33,078 nt of DNA from Actinomycetota bacterium (GTDB taxonomy: Bacteria; Actinomycetota; Aquicultoria; Aquicultorales; JAMCWL01). The stretch lies in the NCBI GenBank assembly GCA_023481285.1, contig JAMCWL010000039.1:1-33078 (forward strand). The letters run 5' to 3'. Below the pieces are notes generated by a model. That model was not told the origin of the DNA, did not search any database, and saw nothing but the letters and a program-made list of their open reading frames with translations. The position numbers were made by a program, and so were the translations under genes. Below are positions 11,055 to 20,830 of this stretch, one piece after another (within the stretch, counting starts at the first letter, position 1; each line of letters starts with the position of its first letter).

Positions 11055-11972
11055 TTACATTATCCTTGCCGCGTACTGCCAGATCGGCACGGTGAGCAAA
11101 GCGAGGAGCGTCGTCCCGATGATCGCCGCAGGCAAAAACTCGACGTCCAGCCCGTATTTCATCCCGATGATGAGAGAGAACATCATGGCCGGCATCGACG
11201 CCTCGAGGATGGCGATGCCGCCGTCGACCGGGGGGAAGCCGAGAGCGCGCACCCCGACAAGTGCGATAAGCGGGGCGAAGATAAGCTTCACCAGGGCCGC
11301 AATCGTGAGGGGCTTTCTCTGTTCGAAGATGTGACTTAATTCGATGGAAAGGCCGATGGAAAGCATGATCAGAGGTATGGTCGCGTCAGCCATAAAACCT
11401 ATAGCTTTGGTCACAAAGAACGGCAGCGAGAAGCCGCGGAGCAGGAAAGCGGCGGCCAGGCCGACGAGCGGTGGGAACGTAAAGAGCTCCCGCGAGATAT
11501 TCAACTCCTCCTTACCGTCTCCATAGCGATGGGCGATGATGATGCCGACCGTGAAAACAAAGAGGACGCTGCCGAAAATATCGAAAAAGACGGCCCGCAC
11601 CAGGTTCCCCTGCCCGAATAAGTTAATAGTGAGGGGATAGCCCAGATAGCCTGTGTTACCGACGGCTGAGACCAAAAGGAGAGCCCCAAATGTCGTACGG
11701 TCAAGCTTCAACAGCCGGCCAAGGATGAAGGCGGCACCAACCGAGATGAGCATGACGATGATGGCCAGAAGCGGAATCTTCAGAAGCGAAGAGTCAAGCT
11801 TCGACTGGGTGACCGCACGGAAAATCAGCGCCGGCATCGCCAGGTAGATGATGATGTCGTTTATCACCTGGCGGTTTTCTACCGAGAGAAGGCCGGTCCT
11901 CTTAGCAAGGTAACCGAGTGCGATGAGGAAGACGACCGCGAGTATCGATGAGACGAGATTGCCAACCGCCAT
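11055..11972 (-). CDS. AEC (auxin efflux carrier) family permease
   Basis: AEC proteins are about ten-span membrane carriers of the bile/arsenite/riboflavin transporter superfamily, usually exporting small organic anions. The 305 residues form two hydrophobic halves joined by a short hydrophilic loop near residues 150-160 (HRYGDGKEEL). Family features include an early MPALIFRAV and the NTGYLGYP motif in the fourth helix. The ATG at 11972 follows AAAGGAG. The gene starts 15 bp after the mtnA stop, so it is the third gene of an aldolase - mtnA - permease unit. The context suggests it moves a metabolite of that salvage route, but the substrate cannot be read from sequence. Confidence 0.88.
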   Translation of the reverse strand: MAVGNLVSSILAVVFLIALGYLAKRTGLLSVENRQVINDIIIYLAMPALIFRAVTQSKLDSSLLKIPLLAIIVMLISVGAAFILGRLLKLDRTTFGALLLVSAVGNTGYLGYPLTINLFGQGNLVRAVFFDIFGSVLFVFTVGIIIAHRYGDGKEELNISRELFTFPPLVGLAAAFLLRGFSLPFFVTKAIGFMADATIPLIMLSIGLSIELSHIFEQRKPLTIAALVKLIFAPLIALVGVRALGFPPVDGGIAILEASMPAMMFSLIIGMKYGLDVEFLPAAIIGTTLLALLTVPIWQYAARIM

Positions 11973-11987
11973 CTACAGAGAGCTCCT

Positions 11988-13043
11988 TTAAGTTTTCGAC
12001 CTGGCTTTGCCAAGAATCCCCGAAAGCGTTTCCTCATAAGGAGGATAGACGACCCCACGATCGGTGATGATGCCGGTCACGTATCTCGCGGGCGTGACGT
12101 CGAAGGCCGGGTTGGCGACCGAAATCCCCTCCGGGGCGATGCGTCGCCCACGGATTTCACATACCTCACCCGGCAAACGCTCCTCGATTGGGATATCTTG
12201 GCCACCCTCTATCGAAAGGTCTACCGTGGAGACCGGTGCGGCGACATAGAAGGGAATGTCGTTTTCTTTGGCGAGGACGGCCACCGAGTAAGTGCCGATT
12301 TTGTTGGCAACATCTCCGTTAGGGGCGATGCGGTCGGCTCCGACGACCACCTTTTGAACAAGACCTCTGCTCATAAAGAAGCCCGCCATATTGTCGCAGA
12401 TGAGCGTCATGGGGATTCCCTCCCTGGTGAGCTCCCAGGCGGTCAAGCGTGCGCCCTGAAGCAACGGCCTCGTTTCGTCAACATAGACGTGTATGCGCTT
12501 CCCCCCTGCATGGGCCGCTCGGATGAGTGCGAGGGCGGTCCCGTAAGAGACGGTAGCGAGCGCTCCGGCATTGCAGTGCGTGAGGACGGAATCACCGTCG
12601 GCGATCAACTTAGCCCCATGGCGACCTATCGCCTGGCTCATCTCCCTTTCCTCGTCTGCAATAGCAAGCGCCTCATCTTTAAGGACACTTTTCAAGCGGG
12701 CGACCGAGAGGTGGCTCCCAGCGCGCGCCACCTCTGTCATCCGCTTCAAAGCCCAAAAGAGGTTTACCGCAGTCGGCCTCGTCGAACTTAAGATTTCGGC
12801 GGCTTCATCAATCTCTCTAACGAGCTCGTTTGTATTTGACGCCCTGGACTTCACCGCGACCAGCGCGACCCCGAAAGCCGCCGCGACTCCTATCGCCGGC
12901 GCGCCCCGGATCTTCATCGTCTTGATGGCGTCGGCGACCTCGTGATGATTACAGCAATCGATAGCCACCTCTTCAAGCGGAAGCCTTGTCTGATCTATCA
13001 GGCGTACCTTGTTATTACTTGTCCAGTAGATAGTTTTGATCAT
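11988..13043 (-). CDS. mtnA: S-methyl-5-thioribose-1-phosphate isomerase
   Basis: MtnA converts 5-methylthioribose 1-phosphate to 5-methylthioribulose 1-phosphate, and related enzymes act on 5-deoxyribose 1-phosphate. The 351-residue protein shows the N-terminal substrate-binding stretch KIRGAPAIGVAAAFG, the catalytic cysteine in LTHCNAGALATVSYGTAL, and the catalytic aspartate in VVGADRIAPNGDVANKIGTY. Length and motifs are canonical for MtnA rather than the eIF2B subunits. GGAAAG lies just before the ATG. It begins 19 bp after the LsrF-type aldolase stop and is followed 15 bp later by an AEC permease. None of mtnK, mtnB, mtnC or mtnD is present, so the usual methionine salvage pathway is not encoded here. 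An aldol-cleavage route is more likely. Confidence 0.95.
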   Translation of the reverse strand: MIKTIYWTSNNKVRLIDQTRLPLEEVAIDCCNHHEVADAIKTMKIRGAPAIGVAAAFGVALVAVKSRASNTNELVREIDEAAEILSSTRPTAVNLFWALKRMTEVARAGSHLSVARLKSVLKDEALAIADEEREMSQAIGRHGAKLIADGDSVLTHCNAGALATVSYGTALALIRAAHAGGKRIHVYVDETRPLLQGARLTAWELTREGIPMTLICDNMAGFFMSRGLVQKVVVGADRIAPNGDVANKIGTYSVAVLAKENDIPFYVAAPVSTVDLSIEGGQDIPIEERLPGEVCEIRGRRIAPEGISVANPAFDVTPARYVTGIITDRGVVYPPYEETLSGILGKARSKT

Positions 13044-13062
13044 GCCACTTTCCGGAGAGTGA

Positions 13063-13872
13063 TTACTTTTTCGCGGCTTCTTTCAGATCGACAAATAAAT
13101 CATGAGCCTCATCGGGCTTAACGTTATTATGGACGATTTCTCGAACCGCACGGATCATGGGTACCGGGAAGTCCGACTGCCAGATATTCCGCCCCATGTC
13201 GACTCCGGCGGCTCCCCGCGAGATCGCATCGTATGCCAATTGGAGGGCGTCCAATTCGCTTTCCAGCTTCGGTCCTCCGGCGATCACCACCGGCACGGGA
13301 CAGCCTTCCACTACTTTCTCAAAACCCTCGCAATAGTAAGTCTTAACTATGTGGGCTCCGATTTCAGCCGCGATTCGGCAAGCCAGAGCTAAATAGCGGG
13401 CATCGCGCTTTTCAAGTTCTTTACCAACGGCTGTCACCGCTAGAACGGGGATGCCGAAAGTTTCACCCTCGTTTACTAGGTCAGCCAAACTAAGCAGCGT
13501 TTGGTGTTCATGCTCCGATCCGATGAAAACCGACAGCGCCACGGCGGCCACGTTAAGCCTAATGGCCTCTTCAAATGAGGTGGTAATGCCCTCATCCGCC
13601 AGATTTGGACCTACTATGCTCGTACCGCCGGAAACGCGAAGAACGATTGGGACATCGGCACCTGCATCGACCGACGTTCTCAAAGCCCCGCGGGTCAGCA
13701 TAAGCGAATCCGCGTAAGGGAGAAGCGGTCTGATCGTCGCCTCCAGGTTCTCCAAGCGGCTGGTCGGTCCGAGAAAATAACCGTGGTCGACGGCGAGCAT
13801 GACCGTACGTCCAGTTTGGGGTTTTAGAATTCGGCTTAACCGGTTCTTCATTCCCCAGTCCATGAAGCCCAT
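13063..13872 (-). CDS. LsrF/DhnA-type class I aldolase
   Basis: This DeoC/FbaB-superfamily enzyme acts through a lysine Schiff base. The 269-residue form closely resembles E. coli LsrF (3-hydroxy-5-phosphonooxypentane-2,4-dione thiolase), with MDWGMKNRLSRIL, TVMLAVDHGYFLGP (Asp29), the lysine in IVKTYYCEGFEKVVEGCPVP (Lys177), VVIAGGPK and GVDMGRNIWQ. The start at ATG 13872 has GGGAGG six bases ahead; an open frame reaching 13926 is not needed. No other lsr genes are near. Its partner is mtnA, 19 bp downstream, and a zinc dehydrogenase lies upstream. I infer that it cleaves methylthioribulose 1-phosphate or deoxyribulose 1-phosphate into DHAP and an aldehyde. Fructose-bisphosphate aldolase or LsrF-like thiolase activity remain alternatives. 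Confidence 0.88.
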   Translation of the reverse strand: MGFMDWGMKNRLSRILKPQTGRTVMLAVDHGYFLGPTSRLENLEATIRPLLPYADSLMLTRGALRTSVDAGADVPIVLRVSGGTSIVGPNLADEGITTSFEEAIRLNVAAVALSVFIGSEHEHQTLLSLADLVNEGETFGIPVLAVTAVGKELEKRDARYLALACRIAAEIGAHIVKTYYCEGFEKVVEGCPVPVVIAGGPKLESELDALQLAYDAISRGAAGVDMGRNIWQSDFPVPMIRAVREIVHNNVKPDEAHDLFVDLKEAAKK

Positions 13873-14014
13873 AATGACCTCCCGAGTCGGTCCGCAAGCG
13901 GCTTGATCCCGCTTCTGTGCTCTCAATTCCCCGAAAGAGTGCGCCTTTTAATTCTTCGAGCGCGCTTTCCAAGCTCTATTCAGACGTTACTATAGCAAAA
14001 AGACCTTCTATGCG

Positions 14015-15043
14015 CTAAGCCTGAGGCTGAATGATCACCTTGATTGATTCTTTGCCCTCGGCTGCCAAAGCGAAACCCACTCCGGCATCGGCCAGTCCGA
14101 AGCGGTGAGTGACCATTTCACCGACTCGCACTCGATGAGCCCGTATAAGTTCAAGGGCCGTGACGTGGTCGGCTCGTCCGCCCGCATAGGATGACAACAG
14201 GGTTATTTCACGTCTCCAAAAAAGCTCATTTACCGACCTCGGGATGGTAACCGGTTCGTTGGTGGCTGCGAAGAACAACACCGTTCCTCCTCGCTCCACA
14301 CACTCCAAAGCCTGAGCAACGGCTGAAGAGACCCCGGAGCAGATTATTACCAGATCAGCCAAACGACCCTCGTTTATCCTGAGCAATCGATCTCCGACAT
14401 CCTCGGTGGCGTTAAAGGCAAAAGAAGCGCCCAAGCGCATCGCGGCTTCAAGCTTATAGCTAATGACATCGACGGCGATGACTTGACCGGCGCCAAGAGC
14501 GGCGGCCAGTTGCACATGGAGCAAGCCCGACATACCACTGCCGATGACCAGGACGGTTTGACCTGGCTTCAACCCCGCCAACCTTTGGCCGCGGAAAACA
14601 CAAGCTAGCGGCTCGATAAATGTGGCCTCTTCAAACGAGACGTCATCCGGTAGGCGGTATATCCCCCTATCGACGTTAATGGAAGGCAAGCGCACGTACT
14701 CCGAAAAGCCGCCCGGATCCAAATTGGTTTTGCGAAGGGTTTCACAGACCGTTTCGTGCCCACTCAGGCAGTAGTGACAGCCGTTGCATGGCACATGATG
14801 AGCGGCGGCGATCCTATCTCCTTCTTTGTACCCGGTCACACCTTCACCGACCGCCGCCACAGTACCGGCAATTTCGTGACCCAAGACCAGCGGCGCCTTA
14901 TCGATCCGATACCACTCCATGATGTCAGAACCACAGATGCCGCTGGTTTCGACCTTCATCAGCAACTCACCCGGACCGATTTTAGGAACCGCCACCTCTT
15001 CGAGTCGAACATCATGGTTGTTGTAGTACATGGCTACGCGCAA
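14015..15043 (-). CDS. Zinc-dependent alcohol dehydrogenase (MDR family)
   Basis: This medium-chain dehydrogenase/reductase resembles sorbitol and threonine dehydrogenases. It has catalytic zinc ligands in GICGSD and GHEIAG, four structural-zinc cysteines in VPCNGCHYCLSGHETVC, and a Rossmann nucleotide motif VIGSGMSGLLHVQLAAALGA. The best start is TTG 15043 (MRVAMYYNNHDVRLEEV), five bases after GGGAGG; an ATG 51 bp upstream has no such site, and an ATG 12 bp downstream is also possible. The gene is isolated from the DUF2769 gene by a terminator and lies 142 bp upstream of the aldolase-mtnA unit. In that setting it could reduce the aldehyde released by the aldolase, for example methylthioacetaldehyde or lactaldehyde. 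The substrate is an inference. Confidence 0.9.
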   Translation of the reverse strand: MRVAMYYNNHDVRLEEVAVPKIGPGELLMKVETSGICGSDIMEWYRIDKAPLVLGHEIAGTVAAVGEGVTGYKEGDRIAAAHHVPCNGCHYCLSGHETVCETLRKTNLDPGGFSEYVRLPSINVDRGIYRLPDDVSFEEATFIEPLACVFRGQRLAGLKPGQTVLVIGSGMSGLLHVQLAAALGAGQVIAVDVISYKLEAAMRLGASFAFNATEDVGDRLLRINEGRLADLVIICSGVSSAVAQALECVERGGTVLFFAATNEPVTIPRSVNELFWRREITLLSSYAGGRADHVTALELIRAHRVRVGEMVTHRFGLADAGVGFALAAEGKESIKVIIQPQA

Positions 15044-15186: not shown

Positions 15187-15492
15187 TTAGCCGATAACGT
15201 CGGCGCTGCCCTTAGTGCAGTAATATTGTTGACCAAGGTTGTTTTCCATCCAGACCGCGCACTGCGGGCACTGACAGGGCGCGCTCGCGTTGAAGTCCGG
15301 GCAGGCCGTCTTGCCGACGGCCGTCGCACAGTACATACCGGGTATGGCGCTCGGCTGCGGCAGGTTGCCGGCCTGAATCATCGGCCCGGCGCTCTGCATC
15401 ATCGGCTTGACGCATTGGCTCGCCATCTGCACCGGACAGCCCGGGCAATTGCATTTTTGCACGTTTGACATAGAGTATTCTACAGCGGGCAT
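15187..15492 (-). CDS. Cys-rich DUF2769 family protein
   Basis: This 101-residue protein has two cysteine clusters. The first is CNCPGCPVQMASQCV near residues 14-28. The second is CPDFNASAPCQCPQCAVWMENN with a following YYCTKG near the C-terminus. A lone cysteine sits between (GMYCATAVGKTACPD). The spacing suggests metal binding, perhaps zinc or an iron-sulfur cluster. The pattern matches DUF2769, known mostly from methanogens and other anaerobes and of unknown function. ATG 15492 has GGAGGGG immediately upstream; an upstream in-frame ATG at 15531 is rejected. It follows ahcY by 64 bp and is probably in its operon. The family match is from memory of the cysteine pattern. Confidence 0.82.
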   Translation of the reverse strand: MPAVEYSMSNVQKCNCPGCPVQMASQCVKPMMQSAGPMIQAGNLPQPSAIPGMYCATAVGKTACPDFNASAPCQCPQCAVWMENNLGQQYYCTKGSADVIG

Positions 15493-15556
15493 CTTTTCCC
15501 CTCCTTTAAAGTCATCGGGGATATTTAACACAAAACATGAGTTATTTAACGCCTTT

Positions 15557-17648
<2,092 letters not shown>

Positions 17649-17938: not shown

Positions 17939-20830
17939 TTATCTTGCGGCGTAATACGCGTTGATCCCGTTGACTATCCCCTGGGCCTCGAGCTGGCGAC
18001 CGGCATCGCTCATGAGAAGGAGCGCATCGCCCGAGTTTGTGAGGTAGCCGCCCTCGGAGATGACCCCCGGCATGTAAGTGTGGGTCGGCTGGTAGAGGTC
18101 GCCCCTGGGAACGGCGCCCAGGTTGGCAAAGCCGGTCGTTCCTGAAGTACCGGCGGTAAGTTTCGAGGCGAGAAGTTGTCCCTCGGAAGATTGTGGGCCG
18201 TAAAGAGCCATTACCCCGTTGGGACCCGGATAGTCGGAGGCGTTGTGGTGAACGCTCACGTAGATATCGGCGTTTGCATTGTTGGCGACGTTCACCCTCG
18301 CCATAAGCTCGTCATAGTCGTCGTAGTAGCCGTTGCCGTTTAGATCGGTAAAACTTGCGTTGACGTCGGTATCGGTCGTCCTCGTCGTTACGACCTGGTA
18401 CCCCTGGGCCAGCAGGAGATCGCGAACCCTCAACATGACGTCCAGATTGACGCTCTTTTCGATCAGGCTGTTGCCGATGGCGCCGGGATCGGTCCCCCCG
18501 TGACCGGCGTCGAGGGCCACGAGCCTGCTTATCCTGTAGAAGAAACCACCACCGTTGGAGGGCGTGTAATTGGGTTCCGGTGCGTTCTTTACTAGAATCG
18601 TCCGGGAGTTGTCCCAGTAGCCCGGCGCCGATATCCACGCGGGATAGGCAAGAATACCGGAGGACCCCATCTTGAAGAGATAGAGACCCGATGTAGAAGC
18701 CCCGTAGTTGTAGAAGGCGGCTATGTCACCCTTGCCATCGCCATCGTAATCTCCGGCGACGAGCCTGGTCCTCGAAAGGTCCCAATACGGGGTGGAGAAG
18801 ATGACGCCCGGATGGTTAAGTTGCGTTCCGTTCCAGGTAAACTGCCAGATCCGCATCGCCGTCTTACCGTAGTCATAGAAGGAGACGATCTCATCCCTGC
18901 CGTCGCCATTCAAGTCGACCGGAACAGGTTTGGCGTACGCCTCGTTCCAGGAATTGCTGGACCAGACGGGCTTCGCCGTGAAGTTCGGGTGCACGTTGAA
19001 GAGCCAGGCGACGGTCGTAAGGTTGCCGTAGTCGTAGAAGGCGACGACCTGGTCTTTGCCCGAACCATCGACATCGGCGACGAGCGGCGTCATCTTGGAG
19101 GAATCCCAGTACGGGCTGTACCAGAGGGGATAGGGCATGAAAGAGGAACCGTTGTAGGCGAAGAGGAAGACGCCGGTGTTCGTCCCACCGTAGTTATAGA
19201 AGGCAAGCACCTCGTCGCGACCATCGTTGTTGAAGTCGCCGGTCAACAGAGTGCTCGTCCGGTTGAGATCAAAGTTGCCGCTGCCGCTCTTCCACCACAG
19301 GGTCGGGGCGAAAGCCGTTCCGGTCGACTTGAACAGCCAGACACCGGTAGTCGCCCCGCCGTAATCGTAGAGAGCCATAACGTCCTCTTTGCCGTCGCCG
19401 TCGAAGTCGCCGTAGAGGAACCTGGACCGCCCGGGATCAAAGCCCCCGGAAGCGGATATCCACATCATCCAGGGGACGAAAGTCGAGCCGTTGGAGAGAA
19501 AAGCCCAGCCAGAAGTAGTCGAACCACCGTAGTTGTAGAAACCAACCACATCGGACCTGCCGTCGCCGTTAACATCGCCTCTTTTGGCCTTCCCGCTCGG
19601 CGGGGGTAGGTTGAGCAGCGGGGTATACTCTCCGTTGCTTGCCGGCGAGCTTATCGATGTGAACCAAGAGCTCTTGATGTTGGTCGAGCCCAGACGCGAG
19701 CGGAAATCCGTTCCGGTCATCGTTGCGACCCCACCGTCGTTCTTGATAATCTTCATCATCTTTGCACGGGGGGAAACCCCAGTTTCGCCGACCTGAATCT
19801 CGCGGATGCCGGAGACGTCAAGGGCGGACTCCAGCGCCGTACGGGAGATGGAGTAGGTCCAACCGGGATTGTCGTAGGGAGAGTCGCTATACGGATCGTC
19901 CACGCCTCTCAGATATGCCAAGGCAGTGCCTCCCCAGACATTCTCAACGTTTTCGGTCTTACCGCCGCTCGACGAGAAGTAATAGGTGGCTATCGGCGAC
20001 CCGTTGTACGTTGCCACGATGCTGAAGGTGCCGGTGACCGCGTTAACCCAGTTGACACCCCACGTAGGCTCAGCCTCTTTCTCATAGCCGTTGTAAACCT
20101 GGCTCCTGGTGTCGGCGTAAATATCGAAGTCGCCGGAGGAGTTTATCTTGGGATAAGCGTAGGTCCGCGCCGCGACGGCCTGCGCCTTGAGAGCCTCCAT
20201 CGGCCAACTGGACGGCATCTCCGCGATCCCCCTGAGGTATATCTCGAAATCGATCTGGTTGATGACCTGAAGGGTGGAGCCGTTTGCTTTTGCCCTTATC
20301 GACCCCCGGTAGCGCTTCCCGCCGAAGCTGAAGAGAGAGGACATGTAGGTTCCGAAATCGGCCGGGTTCGTTGGATCGAAGCGGATCGGTCCGAGATACG
20401 CACCTGCGTCGATCGTCCTGCCCCCGGTCAGCCAGGTTATCGCATAGCGACCGTCCCCACGCCGGACCAGCGTAAAAGAGTCACCGGCGTTCGCCCATAT
20501 CGTGGCCCCGCTCGCCTCGTCGACGACCTTGTAAGCGTTCTGGCTCGAGACGCCCGTAGATGATTGGCCGTCAGCCAGTAGAACGCGGATGTTCTTGCCG
20601 CCGGTCGCCGTGGAGCTCAAAGAGATGCCGGTGTAGTAATGCTTGAGAATGGCTTCGTAGCCCCATCCCCGGTTGGCAAATCCCCTGGCGCCATATTGGC
20701 TCATCCCGATGGCGTGCCCGTAACCCTTACCGCTGAAGACGAAGGGGTCCTCGGCTTGAACGCTTGAAACCGGGACTAGAGCCATAACCAGGAGAAGAGC
20801 TAGCAGGATATAAAAAGCGCGTTTCTTCAA
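17939..20830 (-). CDS. Secreted SpoIID / FG-GAP propeller / amidase fusion protein
   Basis: This 963-residue cell-wall hydrolase has a signal peptide (1-26, ending SSVQA). A SpoIID/LytB domain (about 28-390) has GYGHAIGMSQYGARG at its N-terminus, as in actinobacteria, and the glycan-cleaving glutamate in GIAEMPSSWPMEALKAQAVA (Glu204). Six FG-GAP/VCBS-like repeats with calcium-loop motifs follow, DVNGDGRSD at 419 and similar near 475, 532, 586, 639 and 694, forming a probable propeller. Last is an amidase_3 domain (about 768-962) with zinc ligands His777, Glu791 and His861 and catalytic Glu926. A calcium-loop-like insert, DLNGNGYYDDYD, sits within the amidase. SpoIID cuts glycan strands stripped of stem peptides by an amidase; here both are fused. 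The start is TTG, eight bases after GGGGGT. The LCP gene is upstream, 287 bp away. Confidence 0.93.
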   Translation of the reverse strand: MKKRAFYILLALLLVMALVPVSSVQAEDPFVFSGKGYGHAIGMSQYGARGFANRGWGYEAILKHYYTGISLSSTATGGKNIRVLLADGQSSTGVSSQNAYKVVDEASGATIWANAGDSFTLVRRGDGRYAITWLTGGRTIDAGAYLGPIRFDPTNPADFGTYMSSLFSFGGKRYRGSIRAKANGSTLQVINQIDFEIYLRGIAEMPSSWPMEALKAQAVAARTYAYPKINSSGDFDIYADTRSQVYNGYEKEAEPTWGVNWVNAVTGTFSIVATYNGSPIATYYFSSSGGKTENVENVWGGTALAYLRGVDDPYSDSPYDNPGWTYSISRTALESALDVSGIREIQVGETGVSPRAKMMKIIKNDGGVATMTGTDFRSRLGSTNIKSSWFTSISSPASNGEYTPLLNLPPPSGKAKRGDVNGDGRSDVVGFYNYGGSTTSGWAFLSNGSTFVPWMMWISASGGFDPGRSRFLYGDFDGDGKEDVMALYDYGGATTGVWLFKSTGTAFAPTLWWKSGSGNFDLNRTSTLLTGDFNNDGRDEVLAFYNYGGTNTGVFLFAYNGSSFMPYPLWYSPYWDSSKMTPLVADVDGSGKDQVVAFYDYGNLTTVAWLFNVHPNFTAKPVWSSNSWNEAYAKPVPVDLNGDGRDEIVSFYDYGKTAMRIWQFTWNGTQLNHPGVIFSTPYWDLSRTRLVAGDYDGDGKGDIAAFYNYGASTSGLYLFKMGSSGILAYPAWISAPGYWDNSRTILVKNAPEPNYTPSNGGGFFYRISRLVALDAGHGGTDPGAIGNSLIEKSVNLDVMLRVRDLLLAQGYQVVTTRTTDTDVNASFTDLNGNGYYDDYDELMARVNVANNANADIYVSVHHNASDYPGPNGVMALYGPQSSEGQLLASKLTAGTSGTTGFANLGAVPRGDLYQPTHTYMPGVISEGGYLTNSGDALLLMSDAGRQLEAQGIVNGINAYYAAR

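Follow-up and report, generated by a model that had tools for sequence, protein, structure and literature searches.

We describe here an operon in which an LsrF-like aldolase gene lies directly upstream of mtnA, in a stretch of 33,078 nucleotides from an Actinomycetota bacterium (class Aquicultoria, order Aquicultorales; contig JAMCWL010000039.1 of assembly GCA_023481285.1). This stretch, hereafter the window, forms contig C44 of a genome of 2.17 Mb that is 92% complete. The operon is on the minus strand, with short gaps. Its first gene encodes an inosine/guanosine-type purine nucleoside phosphorylase (PNP, 16839–17648; PRK08202), which heads a conserved PNP-SahH-MtnA-AEC operon. It is followed by SahH, adenosylhomocysteinase (15557–16831; TIGR00936, 643 bits), by a small cysteine-rich DUF2769 protein (15187–15531), by a zinc dehydrogenase with ADH_N and ADH_zinc_N domains, here called ADH (14015–15031), and by the 269-amino-acid LsrF-like class I aldolase/thiolase, a short form of the PRK08227/LsrF family, here called ALD (13063–13872). 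An intergenic gap of exactly 19 bp (13044–13062) separates ALD from mtnA (11988–13043), the gene for 5-methylthioribose/5-deoxyribose-1-phosphate isomerase, and the operon ends with an AEC-family permease (Mem_trans, 11055–11972), which is conserved 3' of mtnA across the order and class of the host. MtnA carries the motifs THCN(155), GADRI(235) and NKIGT(247); in the family-model search it scores 439 bits against TIGR00512 (cut-off 279), as expected of a 5-methylthioribose-1-phosphate isomerase, and falls far under the cut-off for ribose-1,5-bisphosphate isomerase. ALD starts at an ATG behind a GGAGG-like site, with a further in-frame start upstream, and ADH at an ATG, with a TTG at 15043 as an alternative; promoter and terminator scans of the locus gave nothing informative. 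An earlier reading of the DNA made by a model without database searches (the sequence-only reading) had given ALD and mtnA, their 19 bp gap, the zinc dehydrogenase upstream and the permease downstream, all of which we confirm; it did not mention the further operon genes upstream, those for DUF2769, SahH and PNP.

ALD is closely related to LsrF, the thiolase that acts on the phosphorylated form of autoinducer-2 (AI-2). It scores 405 bits against the PRK08227/LsrF model, over the equivalog cut-off of 297, and below the cut-offs of the models for two other members of the superfamily, ADH synthase (212 bits, cut-off 299; an enzyme unrelated to the ADH of the operon) and archaeal fructose-bisphosphate (FBP) aldolase (140 bits, cut-off 430). 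The closest solved structures are those of E. coli LsrF, to which ALD is 54% identical, and a Foldseek search with the predicted model (pLDDT 84.5) returned LsrF entries 3gkf and 4p2v at the top (TM about 0.88), with Methanocaldococcus jannaschii ADH synthase after them. The catalytic and phosphate-binding residues of LsrF are K203, D57, H58, Y205, D251, G226, G227, G253 and R254 (PMC2728841). In ALD, K177, D29, H30, Y179, D225 and R228 align with K203, D57, H58, Y205, D251 and R254, and G199, G200 and G227 are the three glycines, so that the whole site is identical in the window protein; the Schiff-base lysine, Lys177, is intact as the sequence-only reading had it. These residues are nearly invariant in an alignment of 102–103 short ALDs, the position of D251 being Asp in 83 and Asn in 18 of 102. 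Other class I aldolases have Ala or Ser at this position and use a Tyr or Glu instead, which is not conserved in LsrF (PMC2728841). ALD follows the LsrF pattern, with Asp kept and no conservation of the catalytic Tyr of related class I aldolases. Ser114 of the window ALD is invariant in all 103 short ALDs, and the corresponding residue is Gln in nine of 11 LsrF-type proteins.

ALD is nevertheless very probably not an AI-2 LsrF. It lacks the N-terminal domain-swap segment of LsrF, which is confined to the 11 LsrF-type rows of the alignment, and in a tree of 118 sequences these 11 proteins form a single clade (support 100), nested within the short ALD family, with the window protein outside it, clustering with the ALDs of G287, G160 and Dadabacteria. 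Three roles were set aside for ALD. A role as FBP aldolase alone, which the sequence-only reading had named as one of the outcomes that would refute it, finds no support: ALD is under the cut-off for this function and the host has its own class II FBP aldolase. A role as ADH synthase in aromatic precursor synthesis is contradicted by the score and by the loss of the catalytic Tyr, and one in AI-2 degradation by the absence of LuxS and of lsr genes nearby.

The dehydrogenase is of the threonine/polyol type. It has C33, H52, E53 and E140, the last being the Glu of an EPL motif and the third zinc ligand; the structural cysteines are at 82/85/88/96, and D188 is an Asp favouring NAD. The Cys-His-Glu zinc site with the Glu of EPL, the four-cysteine structural site and the NAD-type Asp are invariant in 16 sequences, and assign these proteins to the threonine dehydrogenase (TDH)/polyol type of medium-chain dehydrogenases. 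The best model is L-threonine 3-dehydrogenase, yet its 183 bits fall far short of the cut-off of 458; sequence and fold place it in the threonine dehydrogenase/ketose reductase/sorbitol dehydrogenase/galactitol-1-phosphate dehydrogenase group. Enzymes of the TDH/polyol group act on secondary alcohols, which they oxidise.

ALD and ADH form a conserved unit. We compared 109 ALD loci, from relatives of the host and from many phyla including Nitrososphaerota, Bathyarchaeota, Thermoplasmatota, Omnitrophota, Dadabacteria, Deltaproteobacteria, Chloroflexota, Zixibacteria and Acidobacteria. An ADH gene is present within 3.5 kb of ALD on the same strand in 86 of them and never on the opposite strand; it lies 5' of ALD in 41 loci and 3' of it in 45, and the median distance between the two genes is 53 bp. 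Conservation of the pair with a free gene order over such phylogenetic distances argues for selection for a joint function of the two proteins. The conserved unit is ALD plus ADH rather than ALD plus MtnA, the partner assigned to the aldolase by the sequence-only reading, and the proposed restriction of the system to anaerobes must be abandoned, since ammonia-oxidizing archaea are among the carriers of ALD-ADH. In other phyla the pair is otherwise flanked by unrelated housekeeping genes, which gave no further functional clue.

The link with MtnA comes from the operon itself. In the order and class of the host the arrangement PNP-SahH-[slot]-MtnA-AEC is kept, and the slot between SahH and MtnA is occupied in different ways. 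It contains a class II aldolase of about 190 amino acids in G035, G106, G245 and G256. In G192, G073, G267 and G127, too, mtnA is preceded by a class II gene; the slot is empty in other relatives. It contains DUF2769-ADH-ALD in the window, and ALD-ADH in G002, a genome of another class of the phylum (SahH>ALD>ADH>MtnA>AEC, genes overlapping or abutting). The class II proteins of the slot score best against aldolase/FucA-type models and are under the MtnB cut-off, and they therefore look like Ald2/DrdA-type enzymes, the class II aldolases of the dihydroxyacetone phosphate (DHAP) shunt; they also give weak scores against haloarchaeal ribulose-1-phosphate aldolase. No TDH-like ADH was found around mtnA in any of 20 loci examined, all class II aldolase loci included, or in 60 shorter mtnA loci. 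The window and G002 have the opposite gene order and ADHs that are 51% identical, and forcing their two ALDs to be monophyletic costs 28.7 log-likelihood units, with an approximately unbiased (AU) test p of 0.049, a marginal rejection for a pair that was chosen after the first tree had been seen. The ALD-ADH pair was thus probably recruited independently in the two lineages. Two probably separate recruitments into the same slot, in opposite orders, are the strongest single argument for the link with MtnA.

The distribution of mtnA points in the same direction. In the phylum, mtnA is present in 145 of 297 genomes and in 23 of the 25 that carry an ALD-ADH-type gene (Fisher p 3e-6, uncorrected for kinship); these 25 exclude G218 and G282, whose gene is of LsrF type, and include G109 and G187, LsrF-type with sugar contexts and both with mtnA, in the absence of which the count is 21 of 23. 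Of the ALD-carrying genomes of other phyla, 47 of 50 have mtnA (24 of the 25 bacterial ones). Only 12 of these 50 have any protein of PF00596, the fold of both MtnB and Ald2/DrdA, and 36 have mtnA and no PF00596 protein, hence no MtnB and no class II aldolase, so that without ALD-ADH MtnA would lead nowhere. When the mtnA-carrying genomes of the phylum are divided by the presence of ALD, 14 of the 23 that have it contain PF00596, compared with 108 of the 122 that lack it (p 0.003). PF00596 is a broad fold, which limits the use of such counts, and we did not take the count alone as proof of replacement: the hits of the host's order, in G020, G061, G084, G117 and G170, are a 391-amino-acid protein that is not the mtnA-slot gene. 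The perfect 5-versus-6 split in this order was not regarded as decisive either, because those hits lie outside the slot. This 391-amino-acid protein has a C-terminal PF00596 domain, and in these five genomes its gene is convergent with one that is trehalose-phosphate-synthase-like. In four sister genomes ALD is at the same TreT-TPS flank, with ADH too in the two whose contigs extend far enough; the extra DNA at this flank is a transposase gene.

The host genome as a whole contains no match to PF00596 and no mtnD/acireductone dioxygenase (PF03079), at 92% completeness, so that universal methionine salvage (MtnA-B-C/WX-D) cannot be assigned to it. The sequence-only reading had mtnB, mtnC and mtnD absent, which holds for mtnB and mtnD, mtnC not having been searched; its call for a genome-wide check for class II Ald2 is answered by the same lack of any PF00596 protein. 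The genome encodes one class II FBP aldolase, one further DeoC-family protein, and two amidohydrolases of the deoxyadenosine/methylthioadenosine (MTA)/aminofutalosine deaminase group. A 282-amino-acid MTAP-like phosphorylase adjoins an amidohydrolase of the aminofutalosine/MTA group on contig C3 (L258/L275). The genes seen that could supply the 1-phosphate are this phosphorylase and the operon PNP, MtnK and MtnN not having been searched. A deamination–phosphorolysis entry, as proposed for M. jannaschii, is plausible by analogy; the second deaminase may instead serve menaquinone synthesis. Upstream of the operon, the window also encodes (17939–20830, minus strand) a 963-amino-acid protein in which a SpoIID domain, FG-GAP repeats and an N-acetylmuramoyl-L-alanine amidase domain are fused.

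We consider it likely, from gene context and conservation, that ADH and ALD jointly process the product of MtnA to yield DHAP, with the pair substituting for DrdA/Ald2, the class II aldolase of the DHAP shunt. The substrates would be 5-methylthioribulose-1-phosphate and/or 5-deoxyribulose-1-phosphate, derived from MTA and 5'-deoxyadenosine; the nucleosides would probably be deaminated and phosphorolysed by the operon PNP and by the deaminase and MTAP-like phosphorylase encoded elsewhere. For the cleavage we favour oxidation followed by thiolysis, a mechanism with about an even chance of being correct. 3-hydroxy-2,4-pentanedione-5-phosphate is 5-deoxyribulose-1-phosphate with its C4 hydroxyl oxidised to a ketone. 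LsrF converts this substrate, with coenzyme A (CoA), to DHAP and acetyl-CoA (PMC7828210). An NAD-type ADH would thus first turn the C4 hydroxyl of the MtnA product into a ketone, which in the case of the 5-deoxy sugar would give exactly the known substrate of LsrF. ALD would then form a Schiff base through Lys177 and hand the two-carbon piece to CoA, giving DHAP with acetyl-CoA (5-deoxy sugar) or methylthioacetyl-CoA (methylthio sugar). The preference for this mechanism comes from the identity of the LsrF substrate with the C4-oxidised MtnA product and from the threonine/polyol dehydrogenase character of ADH. The sequence-only reading had counted thiolase action as a refutation; as LsrF's catalytic Asp is kept, and not the Tyr, thiolytic cleavage has to be considered and would not refute the pathway. 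Substrates, products and reaction order are what we infer; gene content, conservation, co-occurrence, slot exchange and active-site residues were observed directly.

The mechanism of the sequence-only reading is a plain retro-aldol reaction, in which ALD would split the MtnA product to DHAP and acetaldehyde or methylthioacetaldehyde. ADH would then reduce this aldehyde, with ethanol or methylthioethanol as the product, in the manner of the described DHAP shunt. ALD is in the class I aldolase superfamily and has the Schiff-base lysine and an Asp general base; in the known pathway DrdA/Ald2 performs this very cleavage (PMC6079011; PMC10986504), and class II aldolases fill the same slot. We regard this alternative as rather unlikely, and prefer oxidation–thiolysis to it. 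The catalytic Tyr of related aldolases is lost in ALD with LsrF's Asp present, ADH resembles secondary-alcohol and ketose dehydrogenases, and the pair is also found in aerobic autotrophic archaea. Moreover, loci that rely on a class II aldolase have no dedicated TDH-type dehydrogenase nearby, and in E. coli the cluster comprises just mtnK-mtnA-ald2 (PMC10986504); since such loci do without this ADH, it seems to be needed for the chemistry of ALD and not for aldehyde clearing. Reduction of methylthioacetaldehyde, the function given to ADH by the sequence-only reading, is accordingly not its most likely job. A pathway for unmodified ribose is improbable. SahH would release adenosine, PNP would give ribose-1-phosphate, MtnA or a relative ribulose-1-phosphate, and ALD/ADH would produce DHAP and glycolaldehyde or glycolyl-CoA. 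PNP and SahH at the head of the operon and the weak scores of the slot class II proteins against ribulose-1-phosphate aldolase speak for this, as does the use of sugar bisphosphates for ribose in haloarchaea (PMC9700705); MtnA, however, scores as a true isomerase of 5-methylthioribose-1-phosphate, and ALD-ADH loci of other phyla are not linked to PNP or SahH. Automated annotation and a study of ammonia-oxidizing archaea (PMC11442133) would make ALD a true LsrF that breaks down phosphorylated AI-2 in quorum sensing, which is very improbable. The score over the equivalog cut-off and the identical active site agree with such a role, and uptake of foreign AI-2 could be envisaged; however, luxS was not found in any of the 50 ALD-carrying genomes tested, the window's included, which indicates that AI-2 is not made endogenously, no lsr genes are among the neighbours of ALD in the window, and the protein has neither the domain-swap segment nor a position in the LsrF clade.

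It is also unlikely, to a degree close to that of the ribose pathway, that ALD-ADH serves a separate housekeeping function on another substrate, its adjacency to mtnA being incidental. In favour of such a module, ALD-ADH stands alone beside unrelated housekeeping genes in most genomes, and in G245 and G256 it lies at another site, the slot being filled by a class II aldolase. Further observations weigh against our own interpretation. Physical linkage of ALD-ADH to mtnA was found in two genomes only, the window's and G002. No mtnA was detected in G003 and G210 (95% and 89% complete), which have the ALD-ADH pair, about 14 short-ALD loci, mostly of Thermoplasmata and Bathyarchaeota, have no adjoining ADH, and 18 of 102 short ALDs have Asn for LsrF D251. 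Most archaea have mtnA regardless, so the archaeal co-occurrence is little informative, and the C4 oxidation is a chemical deduction for which we found no direct precedent. Against an independent module stand the probably separate entry of the pair into one and the same SahH-MtnA slot in two lineages, the presence of mtnA in 24 of 25 bacterial ALD genomes and the reciprocal distribution of ALD and PF00596 among genomes with mtnA. The proposal, already in the sequence-only reading, that an unrelated Schiff-base enzyme has replaced the class II aldolase after MtnA in a non-orthologous manner is well supported by the slot exchange, by co-occurrence with mtnA and by the absence of MtnB, Ald2 and MtnD homologues. 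As a separate observation, the dual set of G245 and G256, two genomes of the same class, possibly corresponds to a division of labour between MTA and 5'-deoxyadenosine.

Almost every cell forms MTA and 5'-deoxyadenosine, which are inhibitors of the enzymes producing them. ALD-ADH is a concrete candidate for the missing step in genomes where MtnA leads nowhere else (36 of 50). We propose tentatively, on comparative grounds, that an oxidative, CoA-dependent DHAP shunt serves as the main outlet of MtnA in many phyla of Bacteria and Archaea, ammonia-oxidizing archaea among them, that the LsrF of AI-2 processing evolved from its salvage thiolase, and that archaeal 'lsrF' genes are metabolic. LsrF, and with it AI-2 processing, may derive from the ADH-linked short ALD family, its nesting there resting on a long-branched outgroup. 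A 2024 study listed lsrF homologues of ammonia-oxidizing archaea as AI-2 quorum-sensing genes (PMC11442133); a metabolic role is favoured because the short ALDs adjoin a TDH-like dehydrogenase in genomes with mtnA, and among the ten archaeal genomes tested mtnA is present in nine and luxS in none. In ammonia-oxidizing archaea, the 'lsrF' genes of L074, L116 and some 27 further loci encode short ALDs, mostly beside a TDH-like dehydrogenase. If correct, our proposal would amend the LsrF annotation of a large protein family, call into question the quorum-sensing interpretation of these archaea (PMC11442133) and suggest how the enzyme terminating AI-2 signalling could plausibly have arisen from metabolism. 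The name LsrF is also applied too broadly to plasmid genes: those of L235, L283, L281 and L236 adjoin an FGGY kinase/class II aldolase, an SDR protein, or DhaK-DhaL, and not lsr genes. The LsrF-like genes of G109 and G187, which lie among genes of sugar catabolism together with a class II aldolase-SDR protein, were set aside.

The closest known system is the DHAP shunt, or 5-deoxyribose disposal pathway (MtnK or MtnP, MtnA, Ald2/DrdA), with which the operon shares MtnA, the logic of converting a 5'-deoxynucleoside to a 1-phosphate, a ketose-1-phosphate and DHAP, and, in relatives, the same slot. It differs in that the class II metal aldolase is replaced by an LsrF-like class I enzyme with a dedicated TDH-like dehydrogenase, in the presence of an inosine-type PNP instead of MtnP or MtnN/MtnK, and in a probable CoA-linked product; by definition it is outside the class II DHAP shunt. 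It would give MtnA an outlet resembling that shunt, through an LsrF-family enzyme and a dedicated dehydrogenase. No earlier description of an LsrF-type enzyme in MTA or 5'-deoxyadenosine salvage was found in the open literature, subscription papers and preprints being outside the search. LsrF itself is alike in identity, fold and complete active site, and different in its domain swap, its lsr/LuxS context, its clade and the absence of a dehydrogenase partner. ADH synthase (MJ0400) and archaeal class I FBP aldolase share with ALD the superfamily, the Schiff-base lysine and the phosphate-binding residues; ALD is under both cut-offs, lacks their Tyr and has the Asp of LsrF.

Two further systems offer parallels in chemistry or gene content. 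The proposed sequence resembles the route of threonine dehydrogenase and 2-amino-3-ketobutyrate CoA ligase, where a CH3-CH(OH)- group is oxidised and then thiolysed to acetyl-CoA, threonine aldolase being the counterpart of the class II aldolase here. The analogy would be one of reactions, as ADH is far under the TDH cut-off and ALD is an unrelated TIM barrel. Finally, the 5'-deoxyadenosine recycling proposed for M. jannaschii (MTIP, MtnA, then DKFP) has the same combination of a deaminase, an inosine-type phosphorylase and MtnA, with no mtnB or mtnD; there the product goes to aromatic amino acid precursors, whereas here we propose cleavage to DHAP.

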